Source of the DNA: Brachycybe producta
Lineage: Eukaryota > Arthropoda > Diplopoda > Playtdesmida > Andrognathidae
DNA: 64,000 nucleotides
Direction: 5' to 3'
Assembly: GCA_036925085.1 (NCBI GenBank)
Contig: JAUPFP010000003.1
Location: forward strand, 12,774,675 to 12,838,674
Positions 1,705 to 56,637 of this stretch are shown piece after piece. A program made the translations under genes and the position numbers. The notes under the pieces were generated by a model that was given only the letters and a program-made list of their open reading frames with translations, was not told the DNA's origin and searched no databases. Each line of letters starts with the position of its first letter. Position 1 is the first letter of the stretch.

Positions 1705-1922
1705 TCAGAACGAACCATCAGTAGTAACAGTAGTAGGATTCGAGGGACACTGAGTGGGATAAACACAACAATCGCTGTCAGGTCCCAGTAACACAGTGTC
1801 TTCCGGACATCCGACTCCTCTTTCACAAACATCGCATTCAAGGCCTGTGTCTAGGTTGTCGCAGTTAAGTCGGCATGTAACACATTCATTGTCTTGTTTT
1901 GGGATGCATTCCACATGTGTTT
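1705..1922 (-). CDS. TIL-like secreted cysteine-rich peptide, second exon
   Basis: This exon encodes 71 residues plus a shared first codon. A pyrimidine-rich tract ending CAAG at 1926-1923 marks the acceptor, and the exon enters in phase 1. The encoded domain has ten cysteines spaced as in TIL (trypsin-inhibitor-like) domains. It ends with C-P-x3-T-V-L, then S-x-C-C-x5-C-P, the signature shared by all TIL-like exons in this window. TIL proteins are typically secreted protease inhibitors or defence peptides; the target here is unknown. A poly(A) signal (AATAAA, minus strand 1681-1676) lies just past the stop. Reading upstream through the pyrimidine tract gives a hydrophobic stretch from a Met at 1968, which could be mistaken for a signal peptide. 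I prefer a spliced first exon (see 2096-2192). Confidence 0.65.
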
Positions 1923-2095
1923 CTTGAAAAAGAAATAAAGAAAAAAGTATTAGGCATGGATCCCACATGCGTGAAAAAAGCAGAAAATGGAAATAAATTA
2001 AAAAAAAGAAAATGTATCCTCTAAATTTCTGCTTTAAGGTTTATAGAAGAGGGGAGGGGAGAGAATTAGTTTCGAATATTTCTTCTGAATTTCAC

Positions 2096-2192
2096 CTTGT
2101 GCTAGCAGTTTGTAAGTTGTGATTGCGAGCATCAAATACGTCACCAAGTGATGAGAGTAACAGATTTCATTTCTGAAATAAAAATGATGCAT
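2096..2192 (-). CDS. Candidate first exon for the TIL-like gene at 1705-1922
   Basis: From an ATG at 2192 the minus strand is open for 32 codons plus one base and then meets a GT donor (GTGAAA), giving phase 1 as in the other genes here. Joined to 1705-1922 it would make a 104-residue protein. The last part, HLVTYLMLAITTYKLLAQ, is moderately hydrophobic, but the exon is a weaker signal peptide than in the sister genes. A later in-frame ATG at 2132 would give only 12 residues. The pairing is inferred from frame, phase and proximity. Confidence 0.35.
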
Positions 2193-2239
2193 GGTAAAGG
2201 TTTCGTTAGTAGTTTGAAGAAAACCATCTTGTATATAAA

Positions 2240-2690
2240 AATGTGTTCGATATTAAGGTGGTTTTATAGATATTTATTTTGTTTTGGTCATCCCAGATGG
2301 CGCGCCTGAGTGGCTGTTATGTTCTATGGGAGGTCTCTCTCCCACTCCACCTGCGGTTTTGAGAAAATTTATATTTTTAAAGTAGCATTTGGAGACTTGA
2401 AACGTTCGACTTAGAGTCATCTTTATGCTGGTAGTCTTTAGGTTAGGTTGTTAGGTTACACAATAGATGGCGCTCCAAAATGTACGATGACGACTCCAAG
2501 CTGCCAAATTATTAAAATTTTAAAGCGAACGTTTTTCAGAAAAAAAAAAAAACATTACGAAAAAATTGAAACTGTTTTAGAAACTAGTAAAGTTTGTGAT
2601 AGTGCTTAAAGTTTTGTCATTGATATCTTTCAAAATCCTTTTACAGCAGTTTGAAAATGGGTTAAAAATAGGTTATTTTGATATTGATAT
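2240..2690. repeat. Dispersed repeat with an AAGGTGGTTTTATAGATAT end
   Basis: The same blocks recur at 30570-30830 and inverted at 32140-32370: the AAGGTGG(T/C)TTTATAGATAT end, a segment around CAGATGGCG, and a segment around GCGAACGTTTTT. It carries no open frame of note. The type is unknown; the inverted pair near 30.6 and 32.3 kb suggests terminal inverted repeats. The rest of 2690-3040 is AT-rich with an (AAT)n tract at about 2960-3010, and I see nothing else in it. Confidence 0.45.
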
Positions 2691-3044
2691 TGATTCAATT
2701 CCAATTTACGCCTATGCACTGAAGTTTATCTAGCATGAGAGTTAACTGTAAGAATACAAGTATTTTACTTTTAGCAAATCTTGCAGCCACTATACTGTGC
2801 CCTTTTCTATTTTGCATATTGAATTAACTCAATGAACAATAATTGAAAGCTCTCCACGAGAGTAAATTAACAAATCTCTTGTAATGGCTCAGTTCATTTG
2901 GCTTTGTAATCTTTTTTATTTCAAATTCAAGCCAATTATTACTTATTGTTTAAAAGTAATAATAATAATAATAACAATAAAAATAATAATAAAAATAATA
3001 GTAATAATAATACATTTATTGCATCAAAGATAAAAAGAGATTAC

Positions 3045-3301
3045 AACAAATGAACGGCTTTTTTTCTCAAGGTCAACTATATGTTGCACACTCCCCATCC
3101 AAGAACCCCATGATATTAAATTGGAGAGGGGAAAAGGTTGGAAAGTGTAGAGGGGGAGAGAGAGAAACGTGGAGGGAGGAAAAAAGGGGGAGGGGGTGAC
3201 TAAAATTGAAATGAAAGGAGTAAAAAAGGAACAAACGACGCGCATGCGCACAATTGCCTGTGAATTTTGCTCCCGTCATTTATGACGGGTTACCCCACTA
3301 G
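3045..3301 (+). mobile_element. Helitron-like element, 5'-truncated
   Basis: The 3' end has the hairpin CCCGTCATTTATGACGGG (8-bp stem), then eight bases, then CTAG followed by T. A subterminal hairpin and a CTRR end before a host T are the classic Helitron 3' terminus. The body matches about a dozen other copies in the window (TCAAGGTCAACTATATG, CCAAGAACCCCATGATAT, a GA-rich tract, ACGCGCATGCGCAC). No Rep/helicase is encoded, so it is non-autonomous. Confidence 0.75.
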
Positions 3302-53828: not shown

Positions 53829-53831
53829 TTA

Positions 53832-54136
53832 TGCCAGGTCTGTGTATCTGTCTGAAGTAATGCTGTGCAACCATTGAAGCACGTCAGAATTTATATAAGT
53901 TGAAATAAATGAAGAAATGAACAGCTTTTTTTCTCAAGGTCAACTATATGTTGCACCCTTCCCATCCAAGAACCCCATGATATTAAATTGGAGAGGGGAA
54001 AAGGTTGGAAAGTGTAGAGGAGGAGAGGGGGTGACTGAAATTGAAATGAAAGGAGTAAAAAAGGAACAAACGACGCGCATGTGCACAATTGCCTGTGAAT
54101 TTTGCTCCCGTCATTTATGACGGGTTATCCCACTAG
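53832..54136 (+). mobile_element. Helitron-like element
   Basis: From GCCAGGTCTGTGTATCTGTC to the hairpin and CTAG at 54133-54136 before T. MITE C is absent (short form). Confidence 0.8.
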
Positions 54137-54155
54137 TATTATTATATATATAATA

Positions 54156-54518
54156 TGCCAGGTCTGTGTGGCTGTCTATCTATCTATCTGTCTGTCTGAA
54201 GTAACGCTGTACAATCATTGAAGCACATCGGAATTTATATAAATTAAAATAAATGAAGAAATGAACAGCTTTTTTTCTCTCTATGTTGCACCCTTCCCAT
54301 CCAAGAACCCCATGATATTTAATTCGAGAGGGGAAAAGGTTGGAAAGTGTAGAAGGGGGAGAGAGTGAAACGTCGAGGGGGAGAGAGAAACGTGGAGGGG
54401 GAGAGAGGGAAACGTGGAGGGGGAAAAAGTGGGAGGGGTGACTGAAATTGAAATGAAATGATTAAAAAAAAAAGAAAAAACGAAGCGCATGCGCACAATT
54501 AATTGCCTGTGAATTCTG
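54156..54518 (+). mobile_element. Helitron-like element, 3'-truncated
   Basis: From GCCAGGTCTGTGTGGCTGTC with a (CTAT)n/(CTGT)n tract. Internal GAGAGAAACGTGGAGGGG units are repeated three times. It stops at the junction with the unit 2 copy of the CAGTGGGCG element, before its hairpin. Confidence 0.75.
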
Positions 54519-54812
54519 ATCTGGGAGGGACCAAACGATATTACCGTTATCCAGTAATTGAAATGGTTTATATAATTTTATATTAATTATGAAATTATTA
54601 AATAAACCATTACCTGGACTTAAAACCATAATGCTGGATTGCAGAATACATACGGCAAGCACAGCGAGCGAAACATATTTTTATAATTTTTTCTTGGGCC
54701 ATCTTAAGAGTTTTATAAAGCCCCTTCTACTATCCCAACAGAAAAATAAACTTTTCGTTGGTGCCGGCCGGGGCGGACAGCCTCCTCCCCAAGCTACGCT
54801 AGTGCTGCTCAT
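54515..54812 (+). mobile_element. CAGTGGGCG-ended element, 5'-truncated (unit 2)
   Basis: Matches 39760-40061, including TGCTGGATTGCAGAATACAT and the GCCGGGGCGGACAGCCTCC end. The shared sequence continues to 55160. Confidence 0.6.
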
Positions 54813-55282
54813 GTCTACCCCTCAGGTCCAAGACTTGTGCAAGTTACTGAGCATTTTAGCATATTCATTGCCGTATATCGTTTCACATAGGAGATTGATG
54901 GAAAATGGAAACAACCGTCCCTCTATCGTATTTATCATCTCGTTATTTCGGCTCTACGGGTCGAGTGTCGATGTGGCATGTTTTGATTGGGCCATGCTCA
55001 ATGAGCGTTTTTATTTTGGCAATTAAGGGTTTGCGCCTGGTACATTTTCAACATTTACTTTTTTTCTTTATATTGGGGCGAGGGACTTTTATTTAGGTTC
55101 GCGCGCCACAGGTGCACAAAAAACGCCAAATTATTTTTATTTATTAATTCTATTTTTTTCTTTTAATTAATACTGTAAGTGCTGTGACAGCAGCACTTAT
55201 TATTACAGTAGTGGCAGTCTTTTCATACAGTACACATTGAGGGTCCGCGCTATTTACATTTTTCTATCTTTGATTGTTTTAC

Positions 55283-56637
55283 TTAAGAGGCTACATCACA
55301 AAATTACTTCGAGAAATCGCCGCAAAGAGCGCTAGCATCGTTTTTCTATTGAGAACATAGACCACCAATGTGTCAAAGAAAAAAACGTTAATTTTTAAAA
55401 TACACAGTCGCGGCGGCAATATGTTTATTTTTCATATTTAAAGTTGTCCAATATTAAGTTTTCAAAGTGCAATGTGCACCTTAAATATATGCTGATCGAG
55501 TGATAGAATGACAAAAAAATTGGTAAGTGTGGTTCTATTTTTAAAAACTATTTGAAAATCGCGAAAAATCGCGTTAAACTCCATTGAGCACGCCCAAATA
55601 AGAAGAAAACATTTATTAAAATGCTCGTAAAAATACTTTTAAAAAACCACAATTAAACCAAAGTGAAGCCAACACATTGGCGCACGTGCTGATTTTTTTT
55701 CTGTGTGTTTCCAATTAGAATATTGGATAGTCGTTTCTGGCACAAATAATCTTCACAAATGGCTGTAGCATTAGAAATAGTATAATAGACGGGCACTCGA
55801 TCATCGGTATGCAACAATTACTTGTTGTATCCCTCAGTATGAATCCTTGAGCGCAGTAAACGTTTCCAGGGGTGCATCCACATATATTTATTAGAAGAAG
55901 TGTACTGCATGTTGAAGCGCATAGCACGTTGGTATTGTTCATCAGTGCACTAGTAAAACAATGTGGTTCTGGAAGAAGAATAAAAAAAAAAAAAATACAG
56001 AGACAGGGTTGATTTTTCTGCAACGAGATTTTCAAAATGATTTCGAGAAAAATCTCATGGAGAACCGCTAGCATAGTTTTTATGTTGAGGTGATTTTGAC
56101 ATTTTTATTTCCCTTAAAAATTGCGAATTTTTAACTTTTAACATCCAATAATAATTAAAATGCTCGTAAAAATACCTAAAAAATAATTTTAAATACCCAC
56201 ATCTAAACCATAGTAAAGCCAACACATTGGCGCATGTGCTGATATTTTTGTCTGGATTTTTAAAATTATTTTTACGTATTGTTATGGACGTTTTTTTTTC
56301 ATATTTGGGCGTGTATTCAATGGAATTTAAACATAAGAGTTAGAAATTGGCGATTTTGAAATAGTTTTTAAAAATAGAACCGCAGTTACCAATTTTTTGT
56401 CATTCTATCACTCGATTAGCATATATTTAAGGTGCACACTGCACTTTGAAAACTTAATATTGGAAAACTTTAAATATGAAAAATAAACATATTGCCGCCG
56501 CGACTGTGTGTGTGTTTTAAAAATTAACGTTTCTTCTTTAACATCGGGTCTATGGGCTCAATAGAAAAACGATGCTAGTGCTATTTGTGGCGATTTTTCG
56601 AAGTAGTTTTGCGATGTAGCCTTTTAACTATAGAAGA
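55283..56637. mobile_element. Family E fold-back sequence surrounding the TIL-like exon (unit 2)
   Basis: Left arm 55283-55690, exon 55715-55968, then a gapped arm from about 56030, the centre, and the right arm to about 56625. Same arrangement as 41152-42530, so it existed before the duplication. The left arm contributes an AATAAA (minus strand, about 55618-55613) that unit 1 has lost. Confidence 0.75.

Follow-up and report, generated by a model that had tools for sequence, protein, structure and literature searches.

We analysed a 64,000-base stretch of the genome of the diplopod Brachycybe producta (GenBank assembly GCA_036925085.1, contig JAUPFP010000003.1, positions 12,774,675 to 12,838,674), hereafter called the window, with a G+C content of 36%. 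It carries a real, local family of seven exons of TIL-derived, putatively secreted peptides that share one cysteine rearrangement. An earlier reading made from the sequence alone had proposed seven TIL-like exons with the common ending C-x10-S-x-C-C-x5-C. A scan for this strict pattern in all six translated frames returned exactly seven matches, all of them at the exons beginning at 1705, 3760, 8598, 20508, 30210, 41608 and 55715 (referred to as E1705 to E55715), which confirms the ending in each. Six matches are on the minus strand and one (E3760) is on the plus strand. In 200 third-order Markov simulations the pattern occurred 0.01 times on average and at most once, ruling out a chance origin of the seven matches.

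In front of each of the seven exons stands a phase-1 AG with a pyrimidine-rich tract (12 to 17 of 17 positions). The first cysteine comes at codon 3 to 8, and an in-frame stop follows 0 to 25 codons past the last cysteine of the motif. The acceptor threshold of 11/17 pyrimidines was chosen after inspection of the exons, the lowest exon value being 12/17; at random sites such an acceptor was found in a comparable range with a frequency of 0.0615. Given these acceptors and stops, the most natural reading of the seven is as terminal exons, each belonging to its own small gene for a secreted peptide (Table 1). A single multidomain gene is ruled out by the stop present in each exon and by the position of one exon on the opposite strand. 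AATAAA is found at most 400 bases downstream of six of the stops, E30210 being the exception, which carries little weight in A+T-rich DNA.

To find first exons, we scanned for signal-like peptides with a phase-1 donor at their end; those listed in Table 1 are predictions. The candidates of E41608 and E55715 are identical at 26 of 27 residues. Upstream of E1705 the scan gave no convincing signal exon; from an in-frame ATG at 1968 the frame stays open across the pyrimidine tract. The weak candidate of E30210 may equally be an independent gene; the Gly/Ser/Thr-rich frame around it (35313-35960, minus strand) contains tandem units whose lengths, 21, 27 and 57 bases, are each divisible by three. 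A conotoxin-like pattern, with a conserved signal and a hypervariable mature part, was rejected, as only the recent pair E41608/E55715 has a common signal, to which the candidates predicted for the other genes bear no resemblance. A further signal-like peptide at 62428-62509 (minus strand) ends at a good phase-1 donor (score 8.3) and has no assigned second exon.

Table 1. TIL-like terminal exons and candidate first exons in the window
Feature	Coordinates	Strand	Remarks
Terminal exon E1705	1705..1922	-	Stop 1705-1707; 10 cysteines up to C10; C5-C6 loop of 2 residues
Candidate signal-peptide exon for E3760	3575..3653	+	Good candidate (prediction); phase-1 donor CAG|GTACAT; 106-base intron
Terminal exon E3760	3760..3950	+	8 cysteines; lacks classical C2, C6 and C7
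Terminal exon E8598	8598..8800	-	10 cysteines; C5-C6 loop of 4 residues
Weak candidate signal-peptide exon for E8598	12888..13011	-	Prediction; alternative weak donor gives 12921-13011; donor scores 3.2 and 2.7
Terminal exon E20508	20508..20710	-	10 cysteines; C5-C6 loop of 3 residues (PEG)
Candidate signal-peptide exon for E20508	22635..22704	-	Moderate candidate (prediction); donor score 4.3
Terminal exon E30210	30210..30403	-	10 cysteines; C5-C6 loop of 3 residues (DGG)
Weak candidate first exon for E30210	35342..35936	-	Prediction; signal-like start, then Gly/Ser/Thr-rich stretch; phase-1 donor TAG|GTAAAA, score 4.7
Terminal exon E41608	41608..41852	-	Lacks C4; extra cysteine after C1; C5-C6 loop of 1 residue; 23-residue tail with 1 cysteine beyond C10; 11 cysteines in all
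Candidate signal-peptide exon for E41608	43263..43344	-	Good candidate (prediction); phase-1 donor GAC|GTAAGT
Terminal exon E55715	55715..55968	-	Recent duplicate of E41608; lacks C4; C5-C6 loop of 1 residue; 9 cysteines up to C10; 25-residue tail with 1 cysteine; 10 cysteines in all
Candidate signal-peptide exon for E55715	56772..56853	-	Good candidate (prediction); phase-1 donor GAG|GTAAGT

Leave-one-out profiles, built from a hand alignment on the cysteines, were run against the 2,053 open frames (at least 20 amino acids) of the window. They recovered E1705 (E = 1.6e-9), E3760 (2.7e-9), E8598 (2.8e-8), E20508 (6e-11) and E30210 (1.4e-8), as well as E55715 when both duplicates were left out (2e-5), whereas E41608 is tied to the others only through its duplicate. 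With six of the seven recovered, the profiles support a single family, in agreement with the sequence-only reading. A profile of all seven exons scored its own members at E 2e-24 to 5e-16, as expected by construction, and found no eighth member among these frames, the next one having an E value of 0.24.

The relationship to TIL was assessed at the level of single sequences and of profiles. E20508 lies above the cut-off of Pfam TIL (PF01826; 24.8 versus 24.5 bits) and E8598 below it (21.1 bits); of the remaining five, four had no Pfam match of any kind and E55715 had two weak, unrelated ones (0.12 and 0.26). Searches of PDB chains with single sequences were marginal, E8598 matching BSTI at 0.0088 and E20508 von Willebrand factor at 0.12. 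A profile of four exons (E8598, E20508, E30210 and E1705; alignment A2) was then compared with 177,635 PDB sequences. Its first four matches were BSTI, a solved TIL inhibitor (1.6e-7), Mucin-5B (8e-4 and 1.3e-3) and Mucin-5AC (0.12), all in TIL regions and over nearly the whole length; the fifth was a bacteriocin at 1.2. The TIL assignment made earlier is thus supported directly for these four exons, the other three being joined to them by profile, and the leading matches were not the unrelated families that would have spoken against it. Mucin-5B being the second-best match, the domains resemble those of mucins and von Willebrand factor; these, however, are parts of very large proteins, whereas each domain here ends its own reading frame.

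Classical TIL domains, as described in passages of PMC4567993 and PMC3606364, have ten cysteines joined by bridges 1-7, 2-6, 3-5, 4-10 and 8-9. The present family does not fill these ten positions. From the C6 position to C8 every copy is free of further cysteines, so that C7 is absent from all seven, and each copy has a new cysteine directly before C9. The other nine, C1-C6 and C8-C10, are kept in four copies (E1705, E8598, E20508 and E30210), whose C6-x5-C8 equals the C6-x3-C7-x-C8 of BSTI apart from C7. In the alignment with BSTI, C7 of the latter stands opposite a non-cysteine residue and the new cysteine opposite a Glu. Without C7 the classical bridge 1-7 cannot form; C1 is kept in all seven copies though this partner is lost, so it likely bonds to one member of the adjacent CC pair. 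There are further losses: by alignment to E1705, E3760 lacks both ends of one classical bridge, C2 and C6, and the recent pair lacks C4 and retains its classical partner C10. The absence of C7 and the new cysteine throughout, together with the losses of C2/C6 or C4, lead us to file the family as a variant of TIL and not as classical TIL. The distinct subclass that had been suggested for the CC pair holds inside the window, in all seven copies, but its basis is a swap, C7 lost and a new cysteine gained before C9, and not one additional cysteine. The portions of the literature consulted contained no TIL domain with this CC pair, which is not proof of its absence from print.

Among known systems, the Ascaris-type inhibitors BSTI (1hx2) and SjAPI are likewise small, single-domain secreted peptides of similar size (secretion being predicted here), with the same cysteine order in the four copies named above and the same C9-x5-C10. 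They differ in having C7, in lacking the cysteine before C9 and in a C5-C6 loop of three residues, a length kept in two of the seven copies. The silkworm proteins BmSPI38 and BmSPI39 likewise have an atypical TIL domain without the full ten cysteines, and E3760, alone among the seven, shares their joint loss of C2 and C6. In the passages of PMC10004685 at hand, however, this is the only loss described for them; neither a CC pair nor a missing C7 is mentioned.

The protease-binding loop of Ascaris-type inhibitors lies between C5 and C6, and in SjAPI its three residues are P2, P1 and P1' (passages of PMC3606364). A loop of three residues is kept only in E20508 and E30210; E3760, which lacks C6, has no C5-C6 loop length. 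With the loop altered in length or C6 lost in the five other copies, canonical protease inhibition is doubtful for these five. In the two three-residue loops, P1 would be Glu or Gly by analogy with SjAPI. These two may still be inhibitors: BmSPI38 and BmSPI39, with putative P1 Gly and Ala and without C2 and C6, still inhibit (passages of PMC10004685), and the former offers a precedent for Gly.

These silkworm proteins, the two retained loops and the TIL relationship seen with Pfam and the PDB profile would also fit ordinary TIL serine-protease inhibitors, in which the specificity loop has diversified and the scaffold has changed neutrally through the cysteine swap. We consider this unlikely in view of the five copies in which the usual loop length or C6 is missing, and of the Glu or Gly that the remaining two would place at P1.

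The exons had been described as very different in sequence, which holds for most of them but not for E41608 and E55715. These recent duplicates share 70.7% protein identity over 82 residues including the tail and, within the domain, 50 of 60 aligned residues. Twelve of the 60 domain codons differ, and ten of the 12 alter the amino acid. Estimates of dN and dS (nonsynonymous and synonymous divergence) were 0.095 and 0.066 by NG86, 0.099 and 0.020 by LWL85, and 0.102 and 0.058 by YN00. Base differences amounted to 15/179 in the domain, 45/785 in the aligned intron, 40/1,053 in the 5' flank and 19/69 in the coding tail. By Fisher tests, several of which were made without correction, the domain did not differ significantly from the intron (p = 0.23) but did from the 5' flank (p = 0.010) and from both combined (p = 0.044), and the coding tail differed from the intron at p = 8e-8 (uncorrected). 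This suggests relaxed or diversifying change in the recent pair, strongest in the tail; positive selection is not proven. The strong diversifying pressure postulated for the family is therefore favoured only weakly, by the ten nonsynonymous codons of one pair, in which domain and intron do not differ significantly.

Both duplicates are flanked by repeats of a single family in inverted orientation, 41150-41511 versus 42531-42171 for E41608 (84.8% identity) and 55280-55649 versus 56630-56253 for E55715 (84.2%). The same inverted pair at 26912-27674 encloses no TIL exon, so that two of the three pairs enclose one. The duplication extends over the candidate signal exons as well and is larger than the repeat pair; capture of the two exons by a mobile element is unsupported. 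The repeats, the want of a convincing first exon for E1705 and the nine cysteines of E55715 up to C10 could nevertheless mark the exons, all or a number of them, as pseudogenes or as stranded copies carried by transposable elements. This is quite improbable: all seven frames are open though five lineages are only about 30-43% identical, acceptor and phase are kept in every copy, and the extent of the duplication and the empty repeat pair do not fit such an origin.

The explanation that we consider probable as a whole is that of locally duplicated genes for TIL-derived, mostly non-inhibitory secreted peptides, in which a swap of C7 for a new cysteine was accompanied by release of the loop. The seven exons would be the last exons of separate animal genes, with a secretion signal encoded by an upstream exon and linked by a phase-1 junction to a single cysteine domain derived from TIL, which in E30210 perhaps follows a Gly/Ser/Thr-rich stretch. 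The swap would have taken place in the ancestor of all seven, the bridge C1-C7 being most likely replaced by one from C1 to a member of the new pair. The altered bridges would hold the frame and leave the C5-C6 stretch free to vary (1, 1, 2, 3, 3 and 4 residues), and one copy, E3760, would have gone on to lose C2 and C6. The products would most likely be secreted scaffold or defence peptides, with at most a few canonical protease inhibitors left among them.

Several observations weigh against this explanation. Besides the two copies with a three-residue loop and the inhibitors that work without the classical bridges, the signal exons were predicted without a chance control, weakly for E8598 and E30210 and not convincingly for E1705. 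E41608 was not recovered once E55715 was also left out of the profile (E = 0.22). In the recent pair, the loss of C4 with C10 kept and the totals of 11 and 10 cysteines make the pairing unclear and yield no tidy scheme. Five of the seven single sequences have no Pfam TIL match. Two AlphaFold2 models were poor (mean pLDDT 57.4 and 60.1); Foldseek found nothing significant with one, its single match at 7.6 being unrelated, and with the other gave six matches at 2.4-8.7, which were all to MUC5B, VWF or BSTI (root-mean-square deviation 9.6-11.1) and not significant. The missing Pfam matches and unhelpful models could also point to a cysteine-rich family unrelated to TIL that resembles it by cysteine spacing alone, which is hardly credible given the leading BSTI and mucin matches, the E value of 1.2 for the first PDB match of another kind and the score of E20508.

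A secreted family of modified TIL domains is therefore the reading we retain. In a wider form, for which possible but doubtful is a fair description, a TIL lineage would have re-formed one bridge to a pair of neighbouring cysteines, freed its loop and turned an inhibitor fold into a scaffold of general use, on which secreted peptides diversify rapidly. A swap that is real and occurs widely would show that an inhibitor fold, though tightly cross-linked, can alter its bridges and drop its inhibitory loop while retaining its frame. The signature, no C7 and S-x-C-C before the last cysteine, could serve to find members missed by Pfam TIL, as five were here.

Viral contigs queried with A2, E20508, E8598, the Gly/Ser/Thr-rich frame and a repeat pattern gave no relatives, nor did prokaryote genome contigs queried with E41608; this says little on animals and is expected for an animal gene family. 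Scans of the window gave no Rfam match and no ARAGORN gene, and Pfam searches of ten other open frames gave nothing at the cut-off. An open frame at 60669-61154 (minus strand), in which an internal Met precedes a hydrophobic stretch and eight spaced cysteines, has no Pfam match at E 1 and has the look of a further small secreted protein rich in cysteine. Related 30-base minisatellites of alternating purines and pyrimidines, open in several frames, lie at 44537-45807 and 6890-7030. Separate tandem arrays of variants of TTTAGGGCAAATG occupy 24735-25162, 28640-28882, 34386-34629, 36483-37252 and 37357-37626.

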